Assembly (NCBI GenBank): GCA_012516075.1
Contig: JAAYXE010000031.1
Span: 1 to 64,000 of the forward strand
DNA length: 64,000 bases
Origin: Chloroflexota bacterium
GTDB taxonomy: Bacteria > Chloroflexota > Anaerolineae > Anaerolineales > UBA4823
Direction of reading: 5' to 3'
Shown: positions 10,038-63,934 of the stretch, piece after piece
Layout: the number at the start of each line of letters is the position of its first letter
How positions within the stretch are numbered: position 1 is the first letter of the stretch
The notes under the pieces: generated by a model
The model's database searches: none
Told to the model about the DNA's origin: nothing
The model's input: only the letters and a program-made list of their open reading frames with translations
Translations under genes and position numbers: made by a program

Positions 10038-10114
10038 TGCAGGTCAGGCAGCATTTTTTTCTGCAGGTCTGCTCAGATGCTGCTCTTGATAAGGGGTCTG
10101 ATAAAGGGGTTTAT

Positions 10115-13100
10115 ATGGAAAAGCTCACCGGGAAAAAAACGTTCGGGATTCTGATCTTCTTGCTGCTGGCGCTTTCCATGGCCTGCTCCATTCCAACGCT
10201 GCCGCGCGCAACGCAAGATGTACCTCAGGTTCTGCCGGACCCTACACCCACTTCGCCCCCACCGACTCCGGCTGCCCCGCTGCCGCCGGCCCTGGTTGAG
10301 AGCGACCCGCCTCAGGGAGCAGAACTGGCGCTTGACCAGCCCATCACGCTCTACTTTAACCAGCCCATGGATCCGGACTCTGTGCAGCAGGCGCTCTCTG
10401 TGCCCGAAGGTGTGGAGGGAGAATGGGAGTGGCTTGACGACTACAGACTGCGCTTCACGCCGCTGCGCTCCTTCACACCGCAGGACGAACTGCGCATTGA
10501 GGTCGGCCCACAGGCGCGCGCCGCAAACGGGCTGGCGCTTGAAGAGCCCGTACAGGTATCCTTTCAAACCGCCGGCTTTTTAAGGCTGGCACATGCCCTG
10601 CCATCGCCCGATGCCCAGGATGTCGACCCGACCTCGGCTATTGTCGCCGCCTTTGACCACCCGGTGGTGCCGCTGGGGGTCAGTTCGGAAGATCTCCCTG
10701 CAGCACTGCAGATTGAACCTGAGACGGCCGGCAGCGGCGAATGGATCAACACGAGCACCTATGTCTTTTATCCCGAGCCGGCGCTCATGGGTGGGGTCTC
10801 GTATACCGTGCGCGTTTCGCCAGACCTCACAAGCGCCGCCGGCGCGCCGCTGGATGGAACCCTGGAATGGAGCTTTTCTACCGCCCGGCCGGTTATTTCC
10901 TCGGTCTCTCCGGTTCCTGGAGCCAGCGCCGTGCGCCTGGACACGGAGATCGTGCTGACCTTTAACCAGCCGATGGATCCAGCCAGTGTGGAAGCCGGGC
11001 TTTTGCTGACCGGGCCCGGTGGGGAGCCTGTATCGGGAACCAGTGCCTGGAACGAGGAGTACACGCAGCTCACCTTCACGCCGTCTGCGCTGCTGGGGCG
11101 TGACAGCACCTATCATCTGACTCTGGGCAGCAGTGCTCTGGGGGTAGGGGGAACACCCCTGAGCGAGCCGCTCGACCTCACCTTTCAGACGGTGGGCGCA
11201 CTGGCGATCACTTCCAGCAGTCCGCCGCAGGGAGGGCAGTCGGAATACTACGCAGGGGTAAGCCTGACTTTTTCCGCCCCAATCAACACTCAGGACCTGC
11301 TGTCGAAGGTGACCGTCATCCCTGCAGTCCCCAACCTGGATTACTTCTGGAATGAAGATGAGCGCACGCTTTTCCTTTACGGCGATTTTTCCCCGAGCGC
11401 AACTTACGGCCTGCGTATCGACCCCTCACTGGAAGACCCCTGGGGAGGAGCGCTGGGCAGTGAATACACCCTGCTGTTCCATACGGCACCGCTGCCCCCC
11501 GGTTTGACAGGCACAACTGGCACCAATACGGTGTTTCTCACCCCGAACGACAACAGTATTTCCATGCAGGCCACCAATGTCAGCAGCATCACGCTCGAAC
11601 TGGCCGGGCTGCCGCTGGATGATCTCCTGCGCATGGCCGGTTCGGGAGGCTTTGAGATCCTGCGCACGTATTTTCCGGAAGGGGCCACTACCTGGAGTCA
11701 GACACTGGACCTGCCGCCAGACCGCAGCCAGGTTGTGCCGGTCTACCTGACTCCTGACCGGCAGCCGCTGGCGCCGGGCCTGTATTTTCTGCGCTTTATC
11801 CTGCCTCCCGAAGCAGGTGAAATTACGCCGTATATCCTGGTAGTTGGCAACACGCACATTACATTCAAGCTCAGTGCCGAAGCTGCGCTGGTGTGGGCTG
11901 TGGATCTGCGCAGCAAACAGCCGCTGGCCGATGCGCCGGTCACCCTGTACAGGGAGGACGGCACCACCCTGGCCGAAGGCCGGACAGACGCGGATGGAGT
12001 TTTCAAAACCTCCATCCCGGTTCAGGAAGAACTTTTCGAAAACTATTTCGCGGTCGTTGGCCAGCCTGGCTCTGAGGAATTTGGTCTGGCTGCACTGAAC
12101 TGGGAGCAGGGGATTGCCAGCTGGCAGTTCAACCTGCCCACGTATCTGGCCGGCCCGCATCTCCAGGCTTATTTGTACTCCGACCGTCCTATATACCGCC
12201 CGGGGCAGACCGTCTATTTCCGCGCCGTTGTGCGCAGGGCTTACAACGGGCGTTATGAGCTGCCCGATACCGGTGCACTGAAGCTGGAACTGACCGATGA
12301 GCGCGGACAGATCCTGGAAACATTCAATTTATCGCTTTCCGCCTTTGGAACTGCCCACGGGCAGATCAACCTGCCTGAATCGATACAGCCCGGAACATAT
12401 TCGCTGCACAGCCCGGAGATCGACCTTGCTTATCTCAGTTTCCAGGTGGCAGAGTACCGTAAGCCGGAGATCGACCTGCGTGTGTCTTTTGCAGAAGAAC
12501 AGGCTGCCGCTGGAGAACCGCTCACTGCCGCCGTTTACGCCAGATACTTTTTTGACGCCCCTGCTGGCAGCCTGCCGCTGCGCTGGTCCCTGTATGCTCG
12601 CGATTCTTACTTCGCTTTGCCTGGCTATCAGGTGGGCCCCCTGGATTTGAGCTGGCTTTCGGCAAATGAAATCTTCTTTTTCCCCGATTCGCTCGGCGAA
12701 CTGGTGATGGAGGGCGAAGGGCAGACCGCCCCGGATGGGACCTTCTTCCTGGAACTGCCGACCGGACCATCTCAACAGCGCCGGCGCTATACCCTCGAGG
12801 TGACTATCCAGGATGAGAGCGGGCAGCCGGTCTCCGGCCGTTCGACGATCGAGGTGAACCCCAGCGATTTCTATATCGGGCTGAAGCCCGATTCCTGGAC
12901 CGCCCAGGCAGGTGAAATGGCAAGCTTTGAAGTGCAGCTTGTCAACTGGGATCAGTCCCCGGCCGGGGCGCAGGATCTGCGCGCGGTGTATCAGAAAGTC
13001 ACCTGGCGTCGAGACGATGTGGCCAATACGGTGATGACAGCTCCCAGCTATACGACGGAATATACCCCGGTTGCCAGCACGGATTTTCGAACCAACGAAC

Positions 13101-43590: not shown

Positions 43591-46500
43591 TCAGAATTCG
43601 AGCAGCTTCAATGCATCATCACGGTCCAGCGGTGAAGTCGGGTGTGTTGTGGATTCAGCCTGGATGCGTTCAGCTTCCACTTTTTCGGCCAGCTGGGCGA
43701 TGGTGGCCGCGTCAAAGATCGTGCGCAGCGGCAGATTAACCCGAAAAGCCTGATTCAGGCGGCTGATGACCTGAGCAGCCAGCAGCGAATGACCTCCCAG
43801 GTCGAAGAAATTATCCTGAACTCCAACACGGTCCAGCTTGAGCAGCGTTCCCCAGATCTGCGCCAGTTCCTGTTCCACCGGCGATCGCGGGGCTACAAAA
43901 CCCACCTCCAGATCGGGGCGTTCCTGGTCGGGCGCCGGCAGCGCTTTGCGGTCGATCTTTTTGTTGGCAGTGAGCGGGAAAGAGTCCAGGAACACAAACG
44001 CCGATGGCAGCATGTAATCCGGAAGTTGTTCGCGCAGGAACTGCCGCAGTTCGCTGACGGTAGCGCTCATCCCGGGTTTGAGGATCACGTAGCCGACCAG
44101 GCGCTTCTCCCCTGGAGAGTCCTGCCGTGCTACGACCACAGTCTCCTGGACGGCAGGGTGCTGCCGCAGCCGGGTTTCGATTTCTCCCAGTTCAACCCGG
44201 AAGCCGCGGATTTTTACCTGGTGATCGATGCGGCCCAGATATTCGATGTTCCCGTCCGGCAGATAGCGTGCCAGATCTCCGGTGCGGTACAGCCGGGCGC
44301 CGGGCTGTGGGTCAAAGGGGTGGGGGATGAACTTCTCCGCCGTTAGTTCGGGTTTGTTAAGATAACCGTCTGCCAGGCCCTTTCCACCGATGTACAGCTC
44401 TCCGGTGACGCCCACGGGTACGGGCTGCAGATTGGAATCGAGGATATAGCACTGGGTGTTTGCGATTGGGCGTCCGATGTGGATCGGGCCATCCCCTGCT
44501 TCCACCCGGCAGCCGGCGGCGTATACGGTAATTTCGGTCGGGCCGTAGAGATTCCACAGCTCCTTAACGCGCTTCAGCAGTGCGTCTGCCAGGTGTGGTG
44601 TCAGCGCCTCGCCGCCTGTCACTGCCCGCAGTTGAGGGGAGCCCTGCCAGCCGGAATGCACAAGCAGCTGCCAGGTAGTCGGAGTGGCCTGCAGCACAGT
44701 GGCCCCGCTGTCCTCCAGAAGCTTTGCCAGACGCACGCCATCTGCGGCTGTATCGCTGCTGGCGATCACCACGCGCGCGCCTACCGTAAGGGGCACAAAC
44801 AGTTCAAAGACCGACATGTCGAACGACAGGGTGATCACTGCAACCAGCACATCATCCACCGAGAAGCCGGGTTGGGCGCGCATGGCGTGAACAAAGTGCT
44901 GCAGGGCTTTGTGAGGGATCTGCACTCCTTTGGGCTGACCAGTTGATCCCGAAGTATGGATGATGTAGGCCGGGTCATCGGCGTCGATCTGGCACGCCGG
45001 CGGGTGGCAGCTTTCCTGGCTGATTTCCGTCCAGCCGGCGTCGATCAGCACCACGCGGGCATCATGCTCCGGCAGACGGTCAGTCAGCTTTTCCTGGGTG
45101 AGGATGATGGGAGCACGGGTGTCCTGCAGTAAGTACGACAGCCGTTCGCGCGGGTAGGTCGGGTCCAGGGGAACGTAGGCCCCGCCGGCTTTCAGGATCC
45201 CCAGGACGCCCACCAGCATCTCCAGGGAGCGCTCCACGCAGATCGCGATCAGTGTCCCCGGACCGGCGCCCAGTTTTTGCAGGTAGTGGGCGAGCTGGTT
45301 GGCGCGCTCATCCAGTTCACGATAGGTGAGCTGCTGGTCTTCGAAAACCGCAGCCACTGCATGCGGCGTTATCTGGGCCTGAGCGGCGATTAATTCGTGG
45401 GCGAAGCGATCCGCCGGGTATTCCAGATCTGTGGCGTTCCACTCGACCAGGATCTGGTGGCGCTCCTGTGGGCTGAGCAGGTTCAATTTGCTCAGGGGCA
45501 AAGCGGGGTTTTCCACGATGCTCTCGAGCAGCGTTTGCATGTGGATGGCCATGCGCTCGACCGTCTCGGGTGGAAACAGATCGGTGTTGTACTCGATGAA
45601 CCCGGTCAGTTCGGGGCCGGTTTCCGTAAAGGAGAACATCAGGTCGAACTTGGCCGTCCCCGTGTGGATGTTTTCCAGCGGCGAGAGCGTCAGGCCCGGA
45701 AGCTCGATGACGTTCATGGGCGTGTTCTGCAGCACCAGCATGACCTGGAAGAGCGGTGAACGGCTCAGGTCCCGCTCGGGCTGCAGCTCTTCCACCAGGC
45801 GATCGAAGGGGATATCCTGGTTTTCGTAGGCTTCCAGTGCCACCCGGCGCACCTGGGCCAGGAAAGCGCGGAATTCCGGGTCGTCAGAGAGATCGGCGCG
45901 CATCACCAGTGTGTTGGCGAAGTAGCCGATGAGCGGAGTGATCTCCGGCCGGTTCCGCCCGGAAATGGGTGTGCCGATCGTGATGTCTTTCTGGCCTGTG
46001 TAGCGGTGCAGCAGGGTGTGGCAGGCGGCCAGCAGCAGCATAAACAGGGTGACCCCTTCTTCTCGGCTCAGCGCTTTCAGGCTGGAAGTCAGGCTGGCTG
46101 GCAGCCGGACCGGCAGCCGGTCACCGCGGTGAGTCTGCACGGCAGGGCGCGGGCGCCCGGTGGTCAAGTCCAGCGGCGGCGGCGGGTTTTCACCGAGCTG
46201 CTTTTTCCAGTAGGCGAGCTGCTTTTCAATCTCCTGCACGCGCTCCGGCTGCTGCTGGAGCAGCATATCATCGGCATACTGCAGGGGCAGGGGATCGAGC
46301 TGCGGCTGTGCGCCCTGAACATAGCCCCGGTACAGCGTGGTGAGCTCATTGAGCAGCACACCAAGCGACCATCCATCCGAGGCGATGTGGTGCAGGGTGA
46401 GCGCCAGGAAGTGCACCTCAGGCTCCAGGCGGAAGAGGGCTGCCCGCAGCTTGAGATCACGGGTAAGGTCGAACGGCCGGCGGACCTCCTCGAGCACCTG

Positions 46501-49500
46501 CTGCCGGGCCTCTGCTTCACGCCGGTCAGCGGGCAGATGCTGCAGATCGATGATGCGCAGGGTCAGTGGGGCCGGCTGGATCTGCTGGTACCACTGTCCA
46601 TCTTCCTGGACAAAATTGGTATGCAGCGGTTCGTGGCGCAGGACGATATCATTCAGGCTGCGTTCGAGCGCAGCGTGATCCAGGCTGCCCTGCAGGCGCA
46701 TGGCAAGCGGGATGTGGTAGGTGGCCTCGCCCGGGTCGAACTGGTCGATGAACAGCAGGCGCTGCTGCCCGGGAGAGAGCGGCAGCTTCGCCGGGCGCGC
46801 GGGTGGGGCGGCTGGTGTGCGGGAACTACTCTTCTTTTCAGCAGCGGGCTGCAGCGGCCAGGGCATCTCGTAGCCCAGTTCGGCGGCGATGCGGCGTACA
46901 GCGCCGCCCGGCCGGTAGGGCAGGCGCGCCTGACGCCAGGCCTCTGCGTACCGCGCTTCAATCTTCTGGTGCTTGTGGAAGTTGGGGTCGCCGATCGAGA
47001 GGGATGCGCCGTGTACACCGTCGGTCATGCGCTCGCCGCTGTAGGGCTCCAGCAGTTCGGGGACGAAAGGCAGGTTCAGGAATGCACAGACCTGCTGTGT
47101 AATCTCTTCCGGACGGCTGACCAGATCCTCGAACTTGACCAGCAGGCTGCGCTCAGGGTCAAGCGAAGCGAGGAAATCCAGGGTGTTGCCCGTGGTCGTG
47201 GCCCAGATATGTTCGGCCAGGCGAGCGGGATCCATACCGCCGGTGTTCAACAGGCGATCCATGCGCACGCGCAGGAAGGAATCGATCATGGCGTATGGAT
47301 GGCGCACCAGGTGAATGTAACGGGGCGAATCAAACAGGGCCTCGGCGCGCTCCAGCACTTCCATCTCCATTCCGTATGCAGGAGACTTGTCCACCAGGAT
47401 GCGGGGATAGGCCCATTCCTGCAGCAGGCGGTAAACCCCCTGTACCGGCAGGTCCTGCTCCACCCATTCGGCGATCAGCGCTCCCGCCTGATCGGCGTCC
47501 AGATCTTTCAGGGCCATGACGGCCCGCAGCAGCCCTTCTTCCAGGTAACTGCCGGCGAGCTTCTGGGTGCGCTCCTTCATGGTGTTGAAGGGCAGCAGGT
47601 GCAGCTCGGGCGGGCTGAACAGGTCGGGATGACCGGCCAGCATCACCCGTAGCAGGGTGGACCCGGCGCGCGGGCTGGAGAGCAGGAAGATGATTCCCGG
47701 ATTGCGCTGCTGCGGAGTGACGAAGGCTTTCTCTGCTTCTGCAGAACTGAACGAGATCTGGATCTCGCCGGCATCAGCATCCGCAGCGGCTGGCTCGACC
47801 GGCTGGTGCACCCGCATTACCTCTCCCAGCAGGTATTCGCCCAGCGCCTGGATAGAGGGCTGTTCGAAGATTTCTCGCGGGAACAGGGTGAGCTGCAGAT
47901 CACGGTCCAGGATGCGGATGAGCTCCATGATCATGATCGAGTCGAAACCGAGCGCCATCAAACTGCTGTCATCCGGGATCTCGCCGGGCTCCATTCGCAG
48001 GACCTGGCCGGCGCGCTGTTTTAACAGCCCCAGCAGCATTTCCAGGCGCTGTTCAGGGGCGGCCTGCAGCAGCAGCTCTACACGCGCCTGCGCCGCTTCC
48101 GGCTCGGTTTCGCCTGGAGCGATCTCACCAGCCAGTTCTTTCAGGAAAGGATCGTCTGCCGGGAAATTCGCTTTCAGTTCAGCGGGTTCTGCCGGAATCA
48201 CGGCAATCCGGGTGATGTCCTGGTAAAGCAGCCGCCCCAGCATTTTCAGTCCCTGACGTGGTGGGATCTGAGCCAGGCCGGAGCGCCGGCGGCCAGCCTT
48301 TTCAGTACGGGCGGCCATCCCCACCTCTGCCCAGGCACCCCAGTTGATACACTGCGCTGCCAGCCCCAGAGCCCGGCGGTAGTGGGCCAGAGCATCCATA
48401 AAGGCGTTGGCCGCTGTGTAGTTCGCCTGTCCCGGTGAACCGGTCAGCGCCGCGCTGGTTGAATAGAGTACAAAGAAATCCAGGGGGGTGTCACGCAGCG
48501 CCTGATGCAGCAGCCAGGCCCCCACGACTTTGGGGCGCAGCACGACCTGCAGTGCATGTGTTTCCATCAGCACCAGCGAGCTGTCCTGTATCAACCCGGC
48601 GGCATGGATAACCCCGAGAATTGGTGGACGGCCTTCTGCTTTGTAGGTCTGGAAAAAGGCGTTGACCTGCGCCTCGTCAGCTACATCGACTGCCGCGGTG
48701 AGCACTTCCGCTCCGCAGGATTCGATGTGCTGCAGAGCCGTAATCGCCGCCGCATAGCGCGGGTTGTTTGCGGCCTCCTGCCAGTCCGTACGCGGCGGCA
48801 GCGGTGTGCGGCCCAGCAGCACCAGGTGACGCGCCCCCTGCTCCGCCATCCACTGTGCGGCCTGCAGGCCCAGTCCTCCCAGCCCGCCTGTAATCAGGTA
48901 AGCGGCATCCGGCTGAAAGGCCGGGAATTCCACGGTTCGCAGGTGCTCTCCGGCGGGCAGCAGCCGGGCAGCATAGCGGAGGCCGCCTCGCAGGGCGATT
49001 TGTTTTTCGGCGTCCGGATGCAGAATCTGGCGCGCCAGCGCCTGCAGCGCTTCACCAGAGCCAGCGGGATCCAGATCGATCAGACCTCCCCACAGGTTGG
49101 GAAGCTCCAGGGCTGCGGTGCGTCCCAGTCCCCACAGCGCAGACTGTTCCAGGGATACGGTCTCTTCAGGAGAGAGTGGCTGGGCGCCGCGCGTGACCAC
49201 CCAGATGCGCGGCGGGACGGGCTGGCTCTTCCAGCCTGCGGCTGTGTTGCTCAGGGCCTGTACCAGGCTCAGCAGACCACCAGTCACCCAGGTCTGCGAC
49301 TCTTCAAGGGCCTGAGCTGTGAGGTCCGTTATGGGGGGCGCATCCAGCCCCCACAGGTAAACGATCCCCTGTAAGGTTTTCTTCTCATCCTGCTGCCAGC
49401 TAACCAGCATCTCTTCCAATTCGGCGCGCTGGAGGGGATCGACAGTTTTTTCACCGTTGTGCGAGAAAGGCGACGGCTGCCGGCGGTAAACAAGCTGGAC

Positions 49501-52500
49501 GCTTTGTCCCAGGCCGGTGAGCAGCGCCGCCAGATCTCTGCCCACACCCTGCTGGTCGGCCAGAATCAGCCAGCTCCCGGAAGCGGGAGCCTCTTCCAGC
49601 TGTTCATCCCTGGGCTGCTCCAGCCAGGAATACGAGTACAGCCATTTCGAAAGATCCGCCTCCTTCTCCAGCGGTTCTTCTGCTTCAACCGCCTGCAGCT
49701 GCATGCCCTGCAGGCGGGCGATCAGGCTGCCGCCGGCGTCATACAGCCGCAGTTCGCCTTGGACGCTGCCACCCTCCACACCACTGATCACGGCATGGCA
49801 CCAGGCCGGCGCACTGCGCTGGTAGATGGTCACCTGGTCAATCTGCTTGAGTAAATGAGTCTGAGAAATATCGCTGTCGACCAGGAGCTGCAGGGCGACA
49901 TCCAGCCAGACCGGGTGAAGGTCATAGACCGGCGGGTCGGGCAGGGGATTCAGGCGCGCCAGTGCTTCTCCACTGCCCAGCCAGAGCTGCTGCAGAGGCT
50001 GGAGGCGCCCCGCGATCTGCAGCCCGCGGCGGGCGCGGACCTCGTACCAGTCCTCGAGGCAGGTTTCCGTCAGGCGGCGCTGTACTTCTTCGGGAGAGAA
50101 CGCATCCTCATGGACATCTGGCCGCGCCTTTGAGATCCTGGCAGAGCACAGCAGACGCCAGCTTTCCTGCGCTGAACCAGCCGGGTTTGCCTGGGCAAAG
50201 ATCTGCAGGGCGGCGCGCCGGGGTCCCTGCGGAGACAGGATCACCTGCAGGGCCTGGCCGTTTTCTTCGAGCGCCAGCCGACCGGTGATAGTTAGATCCT
50301 GCAGCATCAGGGGGTCTGTGGATTGGAAGAAATCGCGGGCCGCGGCCAGGCCGGCCTCCACGCAGGCGCTTTCGGGCAGCGTGGGCCGTTCGAACAACCG
50401 CCGGCTGCTCAGATAGGAGGGCGTGTATGTTCCGATCCGGCTTTCGTAAATAATGTCTTTCAGCGCGACTGGCAGGCGGCGTTCCAGGAAGGGGTGGACA
50501 GGCGCATCCGCTCTACTCAGCCGGATTCCCTGCGGAGAACCGGCGCCGGAGGGCTGGAACCAGTAGCGCTGGCGCTGGAATGGGTAGGTGGGCACCCGCA
50601 CACGCTGGCGCACGTAGTCCCGGTCAAAACCGGCCCAGTCGATGTCCACACCCTGCAGGTATAACTGGCCCAGGCTGTGCAGCATCTGATCCCAGTCGGA
50701 ATGCCGGGGGCTGAGCGAAGGCAGCCAGAGCGCTTCGCCGGTCGGCAGGATTTGCTGCGCCATGGCGATCAGGGTCGGTTTCGGCCCGAGTTCAAGGAAA
50801 ACTCTACAGCCTATTTGCTGCAGGCTGAGGATGGACGGGTGAAACTGTACGGGCTGGCGGATATGCGCCGCCCAGTACGCCGGGTCGCTCAGCTCGTCGC
50901 CCTGAACAACTTTCCCGCTGCGGTTGGAGATCAGCCGGATTTTGGGCCTGGAGAAAGTAACACTGGCGGCAGCCTCTTTAAACGGCTGCAGCACCGGGTC
51001 CATGAGCGGCGAGTGGAAGGCATGCGAAACGTTCAGCGGGTGACTTTTCACCCCTTCGCGTGCCAGCGCATCACAGATGGCTTTGACTGCCGCGCCTTCA
51101 CCGGAGATGACAAAATTCTCCGGGCCATTAACCGCAGCAATATCCACCTGCCCGGTGTAGGACTGCAGCGCTGCTTCCAGGCGGTCCCGGGCAGTAAATA
51201 CTGCCGCCATCGCCCCGCCCGGCGGCAGAGAACCCATCAGCCGGCCGCGTTCGACCACCAGCCGGACAGCATCCTCCAGGCTGAACACGCCGGCTATGCA
51301 GGCGGCGGTGTACTCGCCAATGCTGTGACCCATCACCGCTGCGGGTTTGATCCCCCAGGACATCCACAGCTGTGCCAGGGCATACCCCAGGGCAAACAGG
51401 GCCGGCTGGGTGTAGCGCGTGTCGTCAATAAGGGTTTCTTCCCCTTCGGCAGGGTAAAGGAGCGATAACAGCGAACGCCCCAGGTGGGGCTGCATCAGTT
51501 CATCACAGCGGTCGAGAGCAGCGCGGAAGGTGGGTTGTGTTTCGTAAAGCTCGCGGCCCATCCCGGCATACTGTGCACCCTGCCCGGTAAACAGGAAGGC
51601 GATTTTTGGTTTCTCAGCCGGCACCAGGCTCCCACCCGCTTCTGTCTTCTGCAGCTCCTCCAGTTTGCTTTTCAGATCCTCTCTGGTACCGGCGACCAGA
51701 TATGCCCGGTGGGAAAAGTGTGAACGCCCTGTGTTCGCACTGAAGGCGATATCGGCCAGGGCTGCTTCCGGGTTCTCGTCGAGATAGCGCCTGTAGCGCT
51801 CAACCAGCTCGCTTAAGGCGGCGGCGTTTTTGGCCGAAAGTGCCAGCAGGTGAGCGGGGCGTTCCACCTCGCTGGCAGGAGGCGGCTGGGGTTCCGGCGC
51901 GGCTTCAATGATGATGTGGGCGTTGGTGCCGCTCAGGCCAAATGAGCTGAGACCCGCAATCCGGCGCCCTTCGATCTCCGGCCAGGGCATTTTTTCAGTC
52001 GGGATCCGAATGGGGCTGTTCTCCCAGTCGAAGTGTGGGGTGGGCGTGCGCAGGTGCAGGTGCGGCGGAATCTGCTTATGCTGCAGAGCGAGCACCGTTT
52101 TGATCAGGCCGGCGATGCCGGCGGCGGCTTCCAGATGCCCGATATTCGTTTTTACCGAGCCGACGAACAGCGGACGGCTGCGCGGGCGGTCTTTGCACAG
52201 GGCGCTGTGCAGGGCACGCAGTTCGATGGGATCGCCCAGCGATGTGCCGGTGCCGTGGGCTTCGATATAGCCGACCAGGTGGGGATCAAGTCCTCCTGCA
52301 TCCTGCAGGGCGGCTTCGATCACCGCCTTCTGGGCCTGCCCGTTGGGGACGGTGAGCCCGCTGCTGCGGCCGTCGTGGTTGACAGCCGAGCCGCGAATTA
52401 AGGCCAGCACCATATCGCCGTCTGCCAGAGCGTCGGAGAGGCGCTTCAGCACCACCACGCCGCAGCCTTCACCGCGTACGTAGCCATCCGCATCTTTATC

Positions 52501-53274
52501 AAAGGTTTTACAGCGATTATTGGGGGACAGCGCCCCGGCTTTCGACAATTGGATGGTGCCCGCCGGCGTCAGGATCAGGCCCACACCGGCAGCCAGAGCC
52601 ATATCGCTTTTTCTCAGGCGCAGATCCTGACAGGCATAATGCAGGGCGACCAGCGAAGAAGAGCAGGCCGTGTCCACCACCATGGTGGGGCCGTTCAGCC
52701 CCAGCAGGTAAGCGATCCGCCCTGCAGCAACGCTGAACAGATTGCCGGTGCCCATGTACGTGTCGACCTGCTCCAGCCCACCAGTCAGGAACTGCAGCGT
52801 TCCGTAGTCGTTTGTGCTGATCCCCACGTACACACCGGTGCGGCTGCCGGTCAGGCGGTCAGGCGCCAGCCCGGCATTTTCCAGCGCTTCCCAGCTCGTC
52901 TCCAGCAGGAAGCGCTGCTGGGGGTCCATACTGGCCGTTTCGCGCGGCGACAGCCCGAAGAAGGCCGCATCGAAGCGGTCAACCGGGTCCAAAAAGCCTC
53001 CCCAGCGGGTGTACATCTTCCCAGGCGCTTCCGGGTCGGGATCATAATAGCTGTCTACATCCCAGCGGTCGGCCGGAATTTCCGTAATCCCACTCTCACC
53101 CCGAATGAGCATCTGCCAGAACAGGTCCGGGTTATCTGCGCCGCCTGAAAAGCGGCAGCTCATCCCGATGATGGCAATGGGTTCGGTTTTGGCCTGCTCC
53201 AGAGCATCCAGTTTGCTTTTTAATTCTCGCAGTGCGATCAGGGAGCGCTTGAGGGGGGTCAGATTTTCGGACAT
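43591..53274 (-). CDS. Hybrid PKS-sulfotransferase-NRPS megasynthase
   Basis: The 3227-residue protein has this order. KS (about residues 31-455; [21 protein letters not shown] intact). AT (about 555-890; GHSIGEY, with HAFHSP indicating malonyl-CoA). DH (about 925-1190), where the catalytic DHR is SRR, although the second-site [10 protein letters not shown] Asp remains. KR (about 1455-1640; GGLGGLG, intact). ACP (about 1745-1815; GFDSIM). Sulfotransferase (about 1855-2130; PAPS loop [10 protein letters not shown] and [12 protein letters not shown]). Condensation (about 2160-2590; HHIASDG). Adenylation (about 2605-3100; [10 protein letters not shown]). PCP (about 3125-3200; LGGHSLL). There is no thioesterase. 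The start is placed at ATG 53274, which has GGGCGG 10 nt before it, not at ATG 53295, which has no site. Expected chemistry: chain extension, ketoreduction, O-sulfation, then amide formation with one amino acid. Confidence 0.93.
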
Positions 53275-53340
53275 TCCAGTACTACCGCCCTTCATTTGAT
53301 GTTTGTCACGTAGATAAGGAATAAAAAATGAAAGCAGAGG

Positions 53341-53410: not shown

Positions 53411-56125
53411 TCAGAAGGGATAGTTGGAAACACACCCGGTGAGATCGTTGACGTAGTTCGGGTTCATGAACAGGAATTCGGTCGCGCCGGTGATGGGATC
53501 AATGCGGTACAGGTTGGAGTAATCCACACCGGCGACGTGATGGATGTCGGCCCCGTAGAGCATACCGTTACAGAAGGCCAGCCCTGACCAGATGTCCACC
53601 TCGTGCCCGGAGAGCATGTCCGCCGCGATCAGAGTGACCTGGCGGGTAATCACGTCGAGCGTATACAGGTGCTGGTTGGTGGCCACATACAGCGTCCCAT
53701 CGGGTGCGAACGCCATATCTCCAGTGCCGCGGAATTCGCCGCTCGCCATACCGCTGGTCGCTCCCAGCAGGGTGATGTCGCCGGTGACCTTATCGATCAG
53801 GTACAGGCGGTCGCGATCGTCCATCATGAACAGGGTGCCGTTTGGATGGAAAGCCATGCGGGAGAAGTTAACCTTTGGCGAGGGGTTGTAGACGCGTACC
53901 AGGGTGTGCGTTCCAGTCACCGGATCCCAATATCCAAAGCGGGTAGCGCTGCGCTGCCATTCGAAGTAGTACATGTACCCGCTCTGCGGATCAACATCAA
54001 TCGCCAGGGATCCGAATGCCAGTTCTCCCACCAGGCTGGAGGTCTGCTGGGTCAGGTTGATGGCGTAGATTTCGTTCAGGTTGTAGGCATTAGCGCCGAA
54101 AACGATCAGATCTCCCGGCGTGCTGACCGGAGTTACAGTGATGGTGACGGTCACCGGCGGGCTGGCCAGTTCCCCGTCCCAGGCGCGATAGGTGAAGCTG
54201 TCTATTCCAGAGAAGCCGGGATTGGGCGTGTAGGTAAACCCACCATCTGCCTGGAAGGAGAGGTCGCCGCTGGCAGGCGGGGTAACCAGCACTGCTACCA
54301 GGTCATCGCCATCAGGATCGCTGTCATTGTCCAGAACACCGGGCGCTGCGACGACCAGAGGAACACCGGCGCTGGTGCTGTAGGCGTCCGCTGCTGCCAC
54401 TGGAGGCTGGTTAGGAGGCGCAATGGGATTCACGGTGATGGTGACCGTGGCAGTATTGCTGGAAAGCTCTCCATCGAAGGCCTGGTAGGTGAAACTGTCG
54501 ACGCCGCTGAAGCCGGGGTTGGGGGTGTAGGTGAAGGCTCCGCTGGTGGAAAGGTTGAGCTGTCCGTTTGCCGGTCCGGAAATCAGAACAGCGCTCAATC
54601 CGTCATTATCGGGATCCGAGTCATTGCCCAGCACGCCCGGAGCGCTGACGTTGAGGGGAGTGTCGGCATCGGTCTGATAGGCGTCGTTCACAGCCTGCGG
54701 CGGCTGGTTGACCGGTGCAGGGGGAGCAACCGTAATGGTGACCGTAGCAGTGTTGCTGGAAAGCTCTCCGTCGAAAGCCTGGTAGGTGAAGCTGTCGAAG
54801 CCGCTGAAACCCGGGTTGGGGGTGTAGGTGAAGGCTCCGCTGGCGGAGAGGTTGAGCTGCCCGTTCGCTGGTCCGGAAACCAGCACTGCGGTCAGTCCAT
54901 CATTATCAGGATCCGAGTCATTGCCCAGTACGCCCGGAGTGCTGACGTTCAGAGGTACACCCGCGTCGGTCTGATAGGCGTCGTTCACAGCCTGCGGCGG
55001 CTGGTTCGTGGGCTGCGGAGGGTTGACGGTGATGGTGACCGTGGCAGTGTTGCTGGAAAGCTCTCCATCGAAAGCCTGGTAGGTGAAGCTGTCGACGCCG
55101 CTGAAACCGGGGTTGGGTGTGTAGGTAAAGGCTCCGCTGGCGGAGAGGTTGAGCTGCCCGTTTGCCGGTCCGGAAACCAGCACTGCGGTCAATCCGTCGT
55201 TATCAGGATCCGAATCGTTGCCCAGTACGCCCGGAGCGCTGACATTCAGAGGCGCACCCGCGTCGGTCTGATAGGCGTCGTTCACAGCCTGTGGCGGCTG
55301 GTTGGCGGGCGGGGTGCTGGTCGCCGCACAGCTCGTCAGGTCGTTGAGGATCGCGGCGCTGGCGAAGAGGAACTCTGTCTGCCCGGTCTGCGGGTTGATG
55401 CGGTAGATGTTTGACCCCCCGACGCTCTCCTCCAGACTGGAACCGTAGAGCATACCGTTGCAGTAAGCCAGGCCGCTCCACACCACAACACCTGACCCGC
55501 CAATCATCCCGCTGTAGAGCAGCGTCGCGCTGCGGGAGGGGATATTCACGCTGTAAAGGCTCTGGTAGGTGGCCACATAGAGCGTGCCATCGGGAGCAAA
55601 CGCCATGTCTCCGGTTGCACCCAGGGTTCCATTTTCCAGGCCGTTGATCTTACCCAGCAGGGTCAGGGCGCCGGTCTGCGGGTTGATCGTGTACAGACGG
55701 TCGTTGTTGTCCATGAGATACAGCGTACCGTCAGGATGGAAGGCCATGCGCTTGGCGTAAATCTTGGGAGATGGGATATAGACGGTGATTTCCGTGCTGG
55801 TTCCGGTCGCCGGGTCCCAGTAGGCAAACTCGTCAGCGGTCTTTTGCCACTCGTAGTAATACACCACGCCAGTGACGGGATCCTGTTCGATAGCCTGCGT
55901 GCCGAAGAGGAGGTTCCCAACCACCCGAGAGCTGTTCTGGGTCAGATTGATTTCTACAATCGTGTTGATATCGTATCCATTGGCCCCATATATGATGAGA
56001 TCGCCCGCCTGGGCGGATGCCTTGCTGACCGGCAGCGCCAGTATGGACAGGGTCAGGCTGATACAGAGCAGCAGATGCAGGGCTCTGACGAACTGCTGCC
56101 CTCTGCGGTGAGTATTATGCATCAT
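53411..56125 (-). CDS. Secreted dumb-bell protein: two propeller-like domains joined by four Ig/cadherin-like repeats
   Basis: The 904-residue protein has a signal peptide ending near VSKASAQAG. An N-terminal domain (about residues 40-285) and a C-terminal domain (about 675-904) are homologous: both start GDLI(I/V)(Y/F)GAN and contain MAFHP(D/N)GTL, GDMAFAPDGTLYVAT and WSGLA(Y/F)CNGMLYG, the pattern of NHL/Kelch-like beta-propellers. Between them lie four tandem domains of about 98 residues with VLGNDSDPDNDGL and NPGFSGVDSFTYQAFDGE, the tandem-95/cadherin-like Ca-binding style. ATG 56125 is chosen for its GGAGG 5 nt upstream. An extracellular or surface role is likely; the link with the PKS cluster is by position and strand only. 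Confidence 0.85.
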   Translation of the reverse strand: MMHNTHRRGQQFVRALHLLLCISLTLSILALPVSKASAQAGDLIIYGANGYDINTIVEINLTQNSSRVVGNLLFGTQAIEQDPVTGVVYYYEWQKTADEFAYWDPATGTSTEITVYIPSPKIYAKRMAFHPDGTLYLMDNNDRLYTINPQTGALTLLGKINGLENGTLGATGDMAFAPDGTLYVATYQSLYSVNIPSRSATLLYSGMIGGSGVVVWSGLAYCNGMLYGSSLEESVGGSNIYRINPQTGQTEFLFASAAILNDLTSCAATSTPPANQPPQAVNDAYQTDAGAPLNVSAPGVLGNDSDPDNDGLTAVLVSGPANGQLNLSASGAFTYTPNPGFSGVDSFTYQAFDGELSSNTATVTITVNPPQPTNQPPQAVNDAYQTDAGVPLNVSTPGVLGNDSDPDNDGLTAVLVSGPANGQLNLSASGAFTYTPNPGFSGFDSFTYQAFDGELSSNTATVTITVAPPAPVNQPPQAVNDAYQTDADTPLNVSAPGVLGNDSDPDNDGLSAVLISGPANGQLNLSTSGAFTYTPNPGFSGVDSFTYQAFDGELSSNTATVTITVNPIAPPNQPPVAAADAYSTSAGVPLVVAAPGVLDNDSDPDGDDLVAVLVTPPASGDLSFQADGGFTYTPNPGFSGIDSFTYRAWDGELASPPVTVTITVTPVSTPGDLIVFGANAYNLNEIYAINLTQQTSSLVGELAFGSLAIDVDPQSGYMYYFEWQRSATRFGYWDPVTGTHTLVRVYNPSPKVNFSRMAFHPNGTLFMMDDRDRLYLIDKVTGDITLLGATSGMASGEFRGTGDMAFAPDGTLYVATNQHLYTLDVITRQVTLIAADMLSGHEVDIWSGLAFCNGMLYGADIHHVAGVDYSNLYRIDPITGATEFLFMNPNYVNDLTGCVSNYPF
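54120..55310 (-). repeat. Four tandem repeats of about 295 bp encoding Ig/cadherin-like domains
   Basis: Three units of 295-297 bp (roughly 54416-54710, 54711-55005, 55006-55302) are nearly identical at DNA level. A fourth, more diverged unit (about 54120-54415) precedes them. The near identity points to recent duplication or gene conversion inside the coding region. Confidence 0.9.
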
Positions 56126-56224
56126 CGTTTTCCTCCACTTCGATGCTGTGATGAATCGACCGCATTTCCTTGACTTAATCAAAGTCAGCTTCGATCCTGC
56201 TTATTTCCGGTTATTCAGATCCGT

Positions 56225-57292
56225 TTAGCGCAGCCCTGCAAGCTGCAGAATTTCCAGATCACTTAAAGGTTCAATATCGTATCCAAAAGCCTGGTTAAAG
56301 GGCTCAACCAGGATGGCGTTGGCCAGCAGGCCAGAAATTACGGTGCCCATATGACCGGAGCGGTCTCTGAGCTGCAAATAGCGCGGGTCGTTGCCTTTTT
56401 CAACAATATTGATTAGTTCACCTCCTACATTCAGGTAACGATCGCCCTCCATGCGCTGGAGCGTTTTTTCCACAAAGACATTCATGTCCACCACAACAAT
56501 GCCGCGTTCCTCGGCCATCAACCGCACGCGCTCATTGGTCTCCTGTATGGCCCGGGAGACACGTTCGCGCCCGGCCTCATTTGGAAAGCGCTGCATTGCC
56601 TCCAGAGACTGCCCGCGGTCGAGGAAGTTGACCAGTACCATCTGCACGTCCCCGGCTTCCAGGACTGTATCTACGGCCAGGGTCAGGTTTTCGATAATGC
56701 GATCAATTTTGCGCTGTACGGCGCGGTCATCCAGGGTGCCGTCATAGATTTCGGCATAGGTGCCGCGTTCCAGGTGGAAGTCTGCACCGCCGATATAGAC
56801 AATGACGTGCGATACTTCACCGTTGGCGACCTGTTCAGCCAGGCCGGTATGCTGGCCCTGCTTGATGAAGCTGCCGGTGGATGCGCCGCTGCGCGCCCAG
56901 TTGTACTTATAGCCGCTGCGGCGCGGTTCTCCCCACTCGCCCCAGGGTCCAAAATTCAGGTTGCGCGCCCGGGCGAGCTGCTCCACCCAGTTGAGGGTGT
57001 ACTGTCTGAAGTTGCCGCCCCGGCTGTCATCTGCCTGATACTCGTCGGAATTACTGTCGCCCATGATCCCGATGCCAATAATCGGCCGGGGTTGTCCCAC
57101 AGGCGTATCCACAGGCGTGGCCTGCCGGGTGGGTGCGGCTGCTTCGGCTGAGGAGCGCGGCGGCGGTAAAGGCCTTTCGCTCTCCTTGGCCTGCGGAAAG
57201 CGGATACTGCCTCCGTTGACGAAAAGAAAAATCACCGCAAACAGAAATGCCAGCAGGGCAAGCCGCAGTCCTGCTTTCACGGGTTGTTTCAT
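56225..57292 (-). CDS. Membrane-anchored SGNH-hydrolase-like protein
   Basis: The 355-residue protein has one N-terminal transmembrane helix or uncleaved signal (residues 9-28) and a Pro/Ala-rich linker to about residue 70. An SGNH/GDSL-like domain follows: block I is IGIMGDSNSDE (nucleophile-type Ser80), block II NWARSGAST, block III VIVYIGGADF where GxND is altered, and block V DRSGHMGT with the His. It should be an extracytoplasmic esterase, acyltransferase or lipase-like protein; the substrate is unknown. GGGGAGG stands 5 nt before ATG 57292. It lies 18 nt after the PKS at 57311, so it is probably co-transcribed and may act on the polyketide product outside the membrane. Confidence 0.78.
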   Translation of the reverse strand: MKQPVKAGLRLALLAFLFAVIFLFVNGGSIRFPQAKESERPLPPPRSSAEAAAPTRQATPVDTPVGQPRPIIGIGIMGDSNSDEYQADDSRGGNFRQYTLNWVEQLARARNLNFGPWGEWGEPRRSGYKYNWARSGASTGSFIKQGQHTGLAEQVANGEVSHVIVYIGGADFHLERGTYAEIYDGTLDDRAVQRKIDRIIENLTLAVDTVLEAGDVQMVLVNFLDRGQSLEAMQRFPNEAGRERVSRAIQETNERVRLMAEERGIVVVDMNVFVEKTLQRMEGDRYLNVGGELINIVEKGNDPRYLQLRDRSGHMGTVISGLLANAILVEPFNQAFGYDIEPLSDLEILQLAGLR

Positions 57293-57310
57293 CAAAACCT
57301 CCCCTGGTGC

Positions 57311-60300
57311 TCAGAAGCCAATATCGTCCAGCTCCTGCAGCAAGGTCGCCTCGATTTCATCATCGCTCATCTGCTCCACTTCCGCCGCGATTTCATCGAT
57401 CTGGCGGCTGCCAGTTTCTCCGGCAGTCTGCGGCTCTGGAGCTGTATCCAGGGACAGCACCTCGTTTAACAGATATTCGGTCAGAGCAGCCGCGGTCGGA
57501 TATTCAAACGCCAGCGTGGTGGGCAGAGGTTTGCCAAGGCTGTTCTTCAAGCGGTTGCTCAGTTCGACCGTCATGAGCGAATCCATTCCCAGGTCGGTCA
57601 GCCCGCGCTGGGGATCAACACTGTAGGAAGCTGGCAGACCCAGCACACGCGTCACCTGTTCACGTACATGTTCGAGGAGCAGTTCATAGCGTTCATCCGG
57701 AGCGGCCTCGTTCAGCATCTGCAGGATCTGAGAACCGGCAGCCGCGCCGCCGGATTCTTCGCGGACAGCCGCCTGCTGCAGCATCTCACGCAGGATGGGG
57801 GCTGCCTCGTTTGCGCTGACCTGCGCAGCGAGCTTTTGCCAGTCCATGGGGTACACGCTCACCTGGGTGTGCTTCTTCATCAGCAGGCGCTCGAAGACCT
57901 GCACTCCTTCATCGGGCGCGATCAGGGTGACCCCGGTGGCACTCCAGCGCTGGCGTTCGCGGTCCTGCTGGGCCGCGGCCATCCCGACCTCAGACCAGGG
58001 GCCCCAGTTAATGCTTGTGGCGGGCAGCCCCTGTGCCCGGCGGTAGTGTGCGAGGGCGTCTAAGAAGGCGTTGGCAGCGGCATAGTTCCCCTGACCGCTG
58101 TTGCTCAACACCGGCGCCATGGACGAGAACAGGACGAAGAAGTCCAGCGGCAGCCTCTGCGTGAGGTTGTGCAGGTGCCATGCACCGTGGATCTTGGGTG
58201 CAAACACTTTCTCAAAGCGCGGCCAGGACTGCTGGCGCAGCACGCCATCGTCGAGCACGCCGGCAGCGTGGATGACACCGCGCAGGGGCGGCATGTTCGC
58301 TTCGATTTCGGCCAGCACTGCAGCCACATCGGTCTCCCTGGAGACGTCCCCCTGCCATGTCAGGACATGAGCTCCGGTGTTTTCCCACTCATCTATTAAA
58401 CCCTGAGCAGTCTGCGAAGGTGCGCTGCGGCCCATCAGAACCAGGTGTCGGGCGCCGCGCTGGATCAGGCCGCCGGCAATGGCGAGGCCCAGGCCGCCCA
58501 GGCCGCCGGTGATCAGGTAGGAGCCGTCTTTCCTTACCACAGAACCGCCGTCCAGGTCTTCATCCTGTGAGACCACAATCTTGCCGGTATGCCTGGCCTG
58601 AGCCATAAAGCGGAAGGCTTCGATCACCTCCTGGATATCGAACACATGCAGCGGCAGGGGTTTCAACTGGCCTGCTGCAAACTCAGGCATCAGCTTTGCC
58701 ATGGTGTCCCGGGCGTAATCCGGGTCTTCCAGCAGCTTCTCGGTGAGATCGTAGGGGTAATACTCCAGTGTGGGGTTGAAGTCTCTCACCTGGCGGTGAT
58801 CCCAGATGCCGCGCTTGCCGATCTCCAGGAAGCGTCCACCGTCGGCCAGCACCGACAGGCTCTTGGGGATAAACTCATCCGCCAGAGCGTTGAGCACAAT
58901 GTCTACGCCCTGTCCATCGGTGTACTGCATCACCTGATCGGCGAAATCGAGGGTGCGGGAACTCATCACATATTCCACACCCAGCGAGCGCAGGAAAGCC
59001 CGTTTCTCCGGGCTGCCGGCCGTTCCGAAGACGATCGCTCCTGCCCGCTGCGCTAACTGCACGGCGGCCAGCCCGACGCCGCCGGCAGCGGCGTGAATGA
59101 GCACCCGGTCACCGGGGCGGATTCTGGCCAGGTCGTGCAGGCCGTAGTACGCCGTCAGGAAGGCGATCGGAATCGACGCCGCACGGGCAAAGGTGAGGTC
59201 TGGCGGTTTGGGGAACACCAGATTTTCATCTGCGATGATGTGGCTCTTGAAAGCGCCTTTTCCAAGGGCAATGACTTCATCCCCCGGAGCGAAGGCGGTA
59301 ACCCCCTCGCCAGTGCGGACAACCACTCCGGCGCATTCTGTACCGATCGGCCCCGCCGGACCCGGGTACATCCCCAGCGCGTTGAGCACATCGCGGAAAT
59401 TCAGGCCGGTTGCCCGCACCCGCACTTCCACTTCACCAGGCCCCGGGCTGGGGCGTGTCATCGGGCGCAGGCGGATGTTATCGAGGATGCCGCGCTCAGG
59501 CAGGTCGAGTTCGAAGGGTTCGTTCGCAGGGGGTTCCACGCGTGTCCCCTTGCGGGACAGGTGAACAAAGCGAGCCACGTAGCGCTCCGGCCCGCGCCAG
59601 GCGATCATATCCTCATCGCCGGCCTGCGCCAGTGCGCGTACTACGAGTTGTGCGTGCTCAGGGGCCGCCAGCAGATCCAGATCCAGGCGAGTGCAGCGCA
59701 GTTCCGGATGTTCTGCAGCGGCGGTGCTGGCCAGCCCCCACAGCGGAGACTGGGACAGGTTAACAGCCGTATTGTTGACCGGCTGAGCTCCGCGCGTCAC
59801 CAGCCAGAGGCGGGCTCCATCCGGAGGTAGTTCTTTTTCAAAGCGGGCGCTTAGCGCCTGGATCAGATGGAGAAAGCCTTTCCCGCTGCGCTCCAGCTCC
59901 GTGGTGATCTTATCCAGCTCAGGCGAACCACTGTCCTCCAGGCTCCATAGATAGCAGGTGCCGCGGTAATCTGCCAGGCTGTCGCCGAATACCTCAGCCA
60001 GCAGGCGCTGGAAATCTTCGCTGCAGTCGGGGTTGATCTGCCAGGAAGCGGGTCCGGTAGAGCGGTATTCATTCCCGGGCTGGACGGTAATACACTTCCC
60101 TCCGGCTTCATGAACGGCCTGCGCCAGGCGGCTGTCCGTTTCTCCCGGGGGAGTGAACAGCAGCCACTTTCCACTGAGGTCCGGCTGGCTGTCGAGCTGC
60201 ACAGGCTGCTTCGGCTGCCACTCCACTGCGTACAGCCACTCGTCAAAGCGCCGCTGTACCATGCGCCAGATATCGGCGCGGCGGACTTTGCGTATCTGCA

Positions 60301-63300
60301 GGCCGCTGATGCGGGAAACCGGTTCGCCGCTTTCTTTCAAGAGGACCAGATCTGCAGTGAAAGCGTCTCCCGGGAGGGCGCCGCGCAGCACAGCCTGTGC
60401 CCAGGCCCCTTCCTGCCCGGGCTGGAATAAGCGGTACTGTTCGAAACCTACAGGAACATACACATTGGAAGTAGCCTGCTCATCATCACCCTGTGGGAAG
60501 GCTGCGCCCAAAATTTGCATGGCCGCGTCGAGCAGGGCCGGGTGGATGAAGTAATCGCCCGCACTGGTTCGGACCTGCTCAGGCAGCAGCAGACGGCCCA
60601 GCGCTTCTCCATCGCCGCGCCACAGCTCAACCACGCCCCGGAAGGTGGGGCCATATTCGGCACCCAGTTCGGTGATCTGCTGGTAGTATGCAGCCGGGTC
60701 TACGGCCTGCGTGCAGCGGCTGCGGATTTCATCCAGGTTCAGGCGCTGCTCCTGTTCGCCGCCTGTGTCGAGGCGGATTTTGCCGCGCGTATGCAGCTTC
60801 CAGGCATCGCCGGCATTCTCTTCCAGGCTGAAAATCTGGAAATCGGCCTGCCCGCCCGCCAGGGGTGAGATGGCCACCTGCACGGTGGTGGTTTTGTCTT
60901 CCGGCAGCACCAGGGCTTCCTGGATGCTGACCTCTTCGAGGGCCAGGCTGCTGGCGCCAAAGGCATCGACAGCGGCCGCCAGGGCCATCTCCAGGTAACC
61001 GGTCGCAGGGAACAGCGGGGTTCCAAAGAAGCGGTGATCGGTTAAGTAGGCCGGGTCGCTGACCGAAAATTCAGATTCATACAGGGTACCGTTGATCAGC
61101 GGGGAGCGCAGGCGCCGGTCCAGCAGGGTGTGTACGCTCTGCTCGCGAGCCCGGGAGGCGCGGCCGGGTTTTACGGCCAGGTTCAGCCAGAAGCGCTCAC
61201 GCTGGAATGGATACGTGGGCAGGGGCACGCGCCGGCGGGGGTAATCCCGGTCGAAAGATGCCCAGTCAATTTCCATGCCAGCGGTGTAAAGCCCTGCAAG
61301 GCTCTCGAGCATCTGCTGCCAGTCATCCCGGCCGGAGCGCAGGGAGGGCAGCCAGATCCCTTCGCTGTCCGGCAGGCAGCGGCGTCCCATTCCCAGCAGG
61401 GTCGGCTGGGGGCCGATCTCCAGGAACAGGCGGTATCCGTGCTCATACAGGGCTTTCATCGAGCGGTCGAATTGAACAGGCGCGCGCAGATGCTGCTGCC
61501 AGTATTCCGGATTCGACATCTCGCTTCCGGTGACCAGGCGGCCGGTCACATTGGAAATCAGCGGGATCTGGGGTTCGTGGTATGTGATTGAGGCTGTGAT
61601 GGCGGCGAAATCCTCCAGGATCGGATCCATAAGCGGCGAATGGAAGGCGTGGGAGACGACCAGCTGTTTGGAGCGGATCCCCTTTTCCGCCAGGCCGTCC
61701 AGCACCTTCTGTACGGTCTGCCCGTCGCCCGAGATAACGATGTTCTCCGGGCCGTTGATCGCGGCGATGGAGATCACATCCTGGAAGGGAGCAACGGCCT
61801 CCCGCACGATTTCCTCGGTGCTGAACACGGCGGCCATGGCTCCACCGGCGGGCAGCGACTGCATCAGCCGGCCGCGGGCGGCAATGAGGCGCAGCCCGTC
61901 CTCCAGGCTGAAAATGCCTGCCAGGCAGGCGGCCACATATTCGCCAACACTGTGTCCCATCACCACTCCCGGCTCGATGCCCCAGGATGCCCAGAGCTGC
62001 GCCAGGGCATATTCAACGGCAAACAGCGCCGGCTGGGTGTAAGCCGTCTGGTCGATCCATGCCGCACTGGCCTCGTCCTGCGGGTAAAGAACGTCCAGCA
62101 GCGGGCGTCCCAGCAGGGGGCGCAGGATCTCATCGCACTGCTCCAGCGTCTTGCGGAAAACAGGCTGTGATTCGTAAAGCTGGCGCCCCATACCGGTGTA
62201 CTGCGAACCCTGACCGGTGAACAGGAAGGCGGCTTCGGGCGCAGACTCGCTGAAAGCGGTCCCGCGCAGCAGGCCAGAGGGTGTGTCCCCGGACAGCCAG
62301 CTTTCCAGCAGCGCCTGGGCCTCTTCGGAACTGCGCGCTGTCAGCGCCAGCCGCTCGGCGAAATGCGTTCGTCCTGCACCGGCGGTAAAGCATATGTCCG
62401 CAAAGGAAAGATCCGGGTGAGATGGCAGGAAGGTGCTGTAAGCCCTGGCCAGATCTTTCAGAGCGGATTCTTTCTTAGCCGAAAGCACCAGCAGGTGGTA
62501 TGGACGTTCGTTTTCGATCACCACCGGTTCCGGCTGGGGCGCTTCGGCGACGATCATGTGTACGTTAGTGCCGCTGAAGCCGAAGGAGCTCAGGCCGCCG
62601 ATGCGGCGGGAACCGGCTGGCACCTCCCATTCGACCGGCGTCGTAGGGACCTCGATCGCCGATTGTTCCCAGGGAAACAGCGGGTTGGGCTCGCGGAAGT
62701 GCAGGTGTGGGGGGATCACTTTGTTATGCAGGCTGAGCACCAGTTTGATCAACCCGGCCACGCCCGCGGCGCCTTCGGTATGCCCGATATTTGTCTTCAC
62801 CGAACCGACGTACAGAGGCGATTCTTTGGTGTGCTCCCGTCCGTATACGGCCTGGAGGGCGCGCAGCTCGATCGGGTCTCCCAGAGAAGTACCGGTCCCG
62901 TGGGCTTCTACATAGCCCACTTCTCCCGGTCGAACGCCGGCGTTCTCCAGCGCAGCACGGATGACCGCTTCCTGTGACAGGCCGTTTGGAGCGGTGAGGC
63001 CGTTGCTGCGCCCATCCTGGTTAGCCGCAGAACCCAGGATCACTGCCAGCACCCGGTCTCCGTTTGCCAGAGCGTCGGAAAGGCGCTTGAGCACCACAAC
63101 CCCGCAGCCCTCGCCGCGCACATAACCATCGGCAGATGCATCAAAGGTCTTGCAGCGGCCGTCGAAGGAGACCATGCGAGCACGGGAGATGGTGATCGTA
63201 CCTTCCGGCGTCAGCAGCACGTTGGCGCCTCCCGCCAGCGCCATGTCGCATTCCCTCAGGCGCAGGCTCTGACAGGCCAGATGGGCAGCGACCAGGGAGG

Positions 63301-63934
63301 ATGAGCAGGCGGTATCGAGAGACAGGTTCGGACCGCGCAGGTCCATGAAGTAAGAAATCCGGCCGGCGGTCACCGATTCGGAGACGCCTGTGCTGAAATA
63401 AGCGTCCAGCGATGCCGGATCATTGGCTCGCGCCCGCATGTACAAGTAATCGTGGGAGGAGATCCCAACGAAAACCCCGGTCAGGCTGCCGATGATATCC
63501 TTCGATGCCAGCCCGGCATTTTCGAGCGCTTCCCAGGCCACCTCCAGCAGCAGGCGCTGTTTGGGGTCCATGCCAACCGCTTCACGCGGCGAGATGCGGA
63601 AAAAGTCGGCGTCGAAAAGATCCACATTCTTCAGGAAAGATCCCCAGCGAGTGTAGGTCTTTCCGGGTTTGTCGGGGTCGGGATCGTAATATGCGTCCAC
63701 GTCCCACCGGTCGGGTGGCACTTCCGTGATCGCGTCAACGCCATTCAGGAGCAGATCCCAGAAGGCTTCAGGCGAGTTTGCGTCGTTGGGGAAGCGGCAT
63801 GCCACGCCGACAACGGCGATGGGTTCCCGGCTTGCGTTTTCCTTTTTTTGCAGCCGGCTCTGCATCTCTTCCAGCGTGGTATAAGCATGCTTCAACAGCG
63901 ACTGGTAATCGGTGGACTTACCATCGGAGCTCAT
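57311..63934 (-). CDS. Type I PKS module, fully reducing (KS-AT-DH-ER-KR-ACP)
   Basis: The 2207-residue protein is one complete reducing module. KS (about residues 37-460; Cys near 207 in DTACSSSL). AT (about 560-900; [17 protein letters not shown], malonyl-type). DH (about 930-1210; DHRFFG and [10 protein letters not shown], both catalytic residues kept). ER (about 1490-1790; [20 protein letters not shown] loop). KR (about 1805-1985; GGLGGLG, with HAAGVLDDG indicating the B-type hydroxyl configuration). ACP (about 2080-2160; GMDSLM). The C-terminus is acidic ([16 protein letters not shown]), a likely docking tail. A GAGGA site precedes ATG 63934, which overlaps the previous gene as ATGA. It should add one fully saturated two-carbon unit to the chain delivered by the upstream PKS. 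Confidence 0.96.

Follow-up and report, generated by a model that had tools for sequence, protein, structure and literature searches.

A CurM-type sulfotransferase domain followed by a condensation domain in a PKS-NRPS megasynthase of a Chloroflexota bacterium

Known assembly lines with sulfotransferase domains

The known role of CurM-type sulfonation is in the formation of terminal alkenes. In CurM, once the sulfotransferase (ST) has acted, a thioesterase (TE) frees the carboxylate, and decarboxylation expels the sulfate. The CurM-type STs are activating enzymes of the CurM and olefin synthase (OLS) pathways, where they place a sulfonate onto the beta-hydroxyl of the ACP-bound chain (PMC3903477). 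The last PKS module of HlaB from the haliamide pathway, a PKS-NRPS hybrid, also has a CurM-type ST (PMC6274090). A second arrangement is represented by DysB of dysinosin biosynthesis, where a carrier-ST-C-A-PCP segment serves for sulfated glyceric acid, which is passed on by the condensation (C) domain (PMC6520454). An ST and a glyceric-acid domain are also present in the oci operons of cyanopeptolin biosynthesis (PMC2533009).

Domain organisation of the megasynthase

The window, that is, the whole 64-kb stretch of DNA that was analysed, is the first part of a 138 kb contig. Its minus strand encodes a PKS-NRPS megasynthase (43591..53295; all domains below are on the same strand) with the order KS-AT-DH-KR-ACP-ST-C-A-PCP, where the DH is dead. 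The longest reading of the ORF has 3234 codons; the length of 3227 aa given by an earlier note on this DNA fits the second ATG, but not the longest reading. Pfam hits cover KS, AT, a weak DH, KR, Sulfotransfer_3, Condensation, AMP-binding, and two PP-binding stretches.

The active-site motifs of the KS, AT, KR, ACP, C and PCP are all intact in a motif scan. The ketosynthase (52051..53184) has the active site DTACSSS and both histidine motifs. The acyltransferase (50644..51597) has GHSIGE and a malonyl-type HAFH motif, from which its specificity is predicted. The ketoreductase (48325..48906) retains the Ser-Tyr-Asn residues (GQANYTAAN) and a B-type-like LIQD, as seen in the Pfam match, motif scan and alignment. 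The ACP (47830..48048, limits approximate) carries the phosphopantetheine serine in GFDSI between the KR and the ST, directly upstream of the latter. The condensation domain (45448..46788, residues 2170-2616) has an intact HHIASDG motif, and is followed by the adenylation domain (43957..45384, AMP-binding match at residues 2638-2979) and the peptidyl carrier protein (43684..43872, residues 3142-3204).

The GC content is even along the gene, 59-65% from 43800 on, and this, together with the single uninterrupted frame, makes an assembly join unlikely. Chance or artefact as the origin of the domain order is ruled out by the intact single frame and the full-length domain matches. The feature is real and well formed, and it is uncharacterised.

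The sulfotransferase domain

The earlier note had placed an ST domain inside the megasynthase at 46870-47710, and these coordinates were right: the domain lies at 46876..47712, with support from Pfam, the match to the CurM ST and conservation. Membership in the sulfotransferase superfamily, on which that assignment hinged, is supported by a Sulfotransfer_3 match of 95.5 bits (cut-off 27) at residues 1869-2077, before the Condensation match. Residues 1862-2140 match almost end to end both the CurM ST (4gbm, E 9.9e-103) and the olefin synthase ST (4gox, E 1.1e-85), which are its closest relatives among solved structures; the aligned identity to the CurM ST is 57%.

A tree built from 48 STs splits them into two sides with 100/100 support: one holds every ST preceded by a PKS KR-ACP, including the one considered here, and the other holds all the rest. 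The comparison with CurM made in the earlier note is borne out. The split reflects the preceding carrier (PKS or NRPS) rather than the following domain (TE or C), and the PKS side has mixed downstream context: TE, C or nothing. An earlier placement with outgroups left the ST ambiguous between the TE and NRPS groups; it became clear once relatives from the host class were added. In diagnostic columns, the domain has 21 OLS-type letters out of 28 and two of the glyceric-acid type. The tree and these columns rule out an ST of the glyceric-acid type. The position is also that of the CurM/OLS type, after a KR-ACP expected to supply a beta-hydroxyacyl group.

With catalytic residues judged by conservation alone, the domain retains 63 of 67 positions that the OLS/CurM (TE) group and the glyceric-acid ST group both conserve. 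The remaining four family-conserved positions differ (I1871L, S1877A, I2038T, L2129P), and one might suppose that the ST lacks activity or has a different hydroxyl of the chain as its target. We consider this distinctly unlikely, given the conservation of the other positions and the fact that the ST adjoins the very ACP that should carry the beta-hydroxyl. By its sequence the domain is an intact CurM/olefin synthase-type ST.

The dehydratase and the beta-hydroxyl

The dehydratase remnant (49669..50496) was aligned with the sister modules. The HxxxGxxxxP motif is present in four of the five sister modules and is lost in the megasynthase, where the catalytic histidine is replaced by arginine. 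A DH without this histidine would leave the beta-hydroxyl in place for the ST. A separate observation concerns the ketoreductases of three upstream modules of the same contig (63931-70740, 70704-78446, 82910-90667), which have histidine at the usual position of the catalytic tyrosine (GQGNHAAAN, GQGNHVAAS).

Gene neighbourhood

Six one-module PKS proteins and a discrete thioesterase are encoded upstream of the megasynthase gene. Four of these PKS proteins have methyltransferase domains by Pfam (the modules at 63931, 70704, 78430 and 82910). The preceding module, KS-AT-DH-ER-KR-ACP (57311..63934, minus strand; Pfam and motif scan), ends in a docking-like C-terminal tail, and this tail and the N-terminus of the megasynthase look like a docking pair. 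Between these two genes (53411-57295) are a GDSL-like hydrolase (356 aa), whose N-terminus resembles a signal sequence, and a 923-aa repeat protein, an odd position within a PKS operon. Downstream are a DesI-like aminotransferase, two hexapeptide acyltransferases, and a glycosyltransferase. The genome also has a gene for an APS kinase, at another locus. In another part of the window, at 10034-16024, there is a bacterial alpha-2-macroglobulin-like protein with Big_5 domains.

Candidate amino acid and chain release

The adenylation domain code is DMFQVGLVYK, and that of its counterpart in L169, a protein from the same class as the host (see below), is DILQLGLVWK. Both were read by eye from aligned segments; for position 278 the column was chosen, also by eye, so that the Thr and Val codes of that alignment were recovered. 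The L169 code is close to known glycine codes. On these grounds, glycine is tentatively predicted as the amino acid loaded by the megasynthase.

The condensation domain is the only one found by a search of the host genome, which rules out a downstream NRPS partner. Pfam shows no thioesterase or reductase after the PCP, and no CurM/OLS-type TE was found in the genome with the OLS TE as query. The query matched only alpha/beta-hydrolases on other contigs, partially and weakly, with scores no higher than 43.7 bits. The discrete thioesterase of the cluster (contig positions 95791-96486) is a candidate for release of the product.

It might be suggested that this enzyme acts in trans, taking the sulfated chain off the ACP as the TE does in CurM, so that a terminal alkene is formed and C-A-PCP is bypassed. 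However, the cluster thioesterase belongs to PF00975, the matches to the OLS TE were poor and lay on other contigs, and the OLS-type STs of the surveyed cyanobacteria have the TE fused directly behind. Termination of this kind seems very improbable.

Comparison with known systems

The megasynthase resembles CurM (curacin A) and the OLS in its KS-AT-KR-ACP-ST segment, in the homologous ST and in the likely beta-hydroxyacyl-ACP substrate. However, these end in a chain-releasing TE and produce a terminal alkene, whereas here the ST is followed by C-A-PCP and not by TE, and the protein thus lacks the ST-TE module of decarboxylative termination. The same holds for HlaB, which shares the PKS-NRPS pathway context and the CurM-type ST, but has ST-TE leading to a terminal alkene.

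DysB and its look-alikes have the same carrier-ST-C-A-PCP order, and the DysB type couples its sulfated acyl group to an amino acid. However, the DysB/OciA type uses FkbH-loaded glyceric acid, whereas the megasynthase has a PKS module and no FkbH; the STs of the FkbH proteins that we found are in the half of the ST tree opposite to the ST of the megasynthase. The earlier note knew of no described system with the order KR-ACP-ST-C-A-PCP. Indeed, no characterised KR-ACP-ST-C system, including the relatives L167, L168 and L169, was found in the open-licence literature, so that an example described elsewhere may have been missed; on the other hand, the carrier-ST-C-A-PCP part of the order is known from DysB (PMC6520454). 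The megasynthase is not a new kind of enzyme but a new combination of known parts, in an order that two or more other proteins share.

Proposed mechanism

The megasynthase would come last in a polyketide line of seven modules with multiple methylations, adding one malonyl unit and reducing the beta-keto group; the beta-hydroxyl would be kept because of the dead DH. The ST would then transfer a sulfonate from PAPS to this beta-hydroxyl while the acyl chain is bound to the ACP, and the C domain would couple the sulfated chain to the amino acid that the A domain has loaded, probably glycine. The predicted product is a PCP-bound N-(3-sulfooxyacyl) amino acid that keeps the sulfate, and its release may involve a separate enzyme or hydrolysis. 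We consider this scheme as a whole rather probable. The transfer of a sulfated chain to an amino acid by the C domain, already suggested in the earlier note, holds up as a prediction.

The scheme is supported by the replaced DH histidine, the genomic APS kinase, the sole C domain and the position of the ST in the tree. It is also supported by the same order in L169 and L168, with no Pfam-detectable DH in either, and by the DysB-type precedent, in which a C domain transfers a sulfated acyl group from its carrier. The intact-looking DH of L167 and the lack of a fused release enzyme count against it.

Decarboxylation of the CurM type would be closed off, since the carboxyl would be consumed in the amide and the genome search revealed no CurM-type TE. 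With the carboxyl so used, the simplest expectation is that the sulfate stays. Another possibility is that the sulfate is a leaving group, lost either by beta-elimination, leaving an N-acyl amino acid with an alpha,beta double bond, or by intramolecular displacement closing a ring. This would agree with the activating role of CurM-type STs in the known pathways (PMC3903477) and with the position of the ST in the CurM/OLS half of the family. However, to introduce a simple double bond the line would use a DH, which here is lost, whereas the sister modules keep its motif; nor does any cyclising domain follow the ST. The inactivated DH and the absence of a detected CurM-type TE make elimination less likely than retention, and we regard the loss of sulfate in either way as unlikely.

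If the scheme with retained sulfate is correct, an ST of the same kind that feeds a C domain would show that a beta-sulfate need not be lost and can pass to the next step, and the megasynthase would be a defined enzyme for sulfated lipo-amino acids. A broader and more speculative idea is that CurM-type STs in PKS-NRPS lines of the host class were recruited away from decarboxylative release. A beta-sulfate formed in mid-line may then survive amide formation, either to remain permanently as an anionic group on a lipo-amino acid or to leave in a later ring closure, e.g. on attack by the amide nitrogen; we would currently bet against this generalisation. If it is true, and taken together with the C-A-PCP-ST-C NRPSs that are numerous in the host class, in-line sulfonation would have a general role that has not been described.

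Distribution of related arrangements

The search for the same order in other proteins, proposed in the earlier note, showed that it is not unique. Uniqueness of KR-ACP-ST-C had been suggested by searches of relatives and of the phylum, where no other copy of this ST type was observed in a sample of 400 genomes at E 1e-30. However, with only 400 genomes drawn, this absence is weak evidence and relatives from the host class were missed; uniqueness was overturned by the search of 396 genomes of the class, which found such STs in 18 further genomes at E 1e-20.

Two of the proteins from the class, L169 and L168, have the order KR-ACP-ST-C-A(-PCP). L169 is 47% identical to the megasynthase from the KR region to the PCP; like the megasynthase, it is preceded by a reducing PKS module, and another protein with C-A-PCP comes after it. 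Pfam detects neither AT nor DH in L169 and no DH in L168, which is cut off by contig ends. L167 has a split version, in which one protein ends in ACP-ST and neighbouring ones contain C-A-PCP-ST. The DH upstream of its ACP-ST looks intact, and thus a dead DH is not universal in the KR-ACP-ST-C group. None of these proteins was found to be characterised, but as several separate proteins they make the question of sulfate retention testable.

Many NRPSs of the host class have the order C-A-PCP-ST-C-A-PCP. In L171-L175 and L177-L185 the ST directly follows the PCP and often precedes the next C domain; the A codes of these ST-bearing NRPSs are Val/Ile-, Cys- or Asp-like. Serine or threonine as the residue before the NRPS STs is not supported, as the codes include Val/Ile-like and Cys-like ones.

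In the surveyed cyanobacteria, an ST followed by C occurs mostly in FkbH proteins and in two FAAL-like proteins. An FkbH domain is located upstream in 13 cyanobacterial carrier-ST-C proteins, and both FkbH and FkbM were confirmed by HMM in two. Two cyanobacterial proteins of about 1460-1490 aa, L141 and L142, look like FAAL-PCP-ST-C. Finally, an NRPS with the order A-PCP-ST is encoded on a plasmid of Agrobacterium vitis (L022:18057-21704) near ectB and cysDN, and is possibly related to pathways of the monobactam type.
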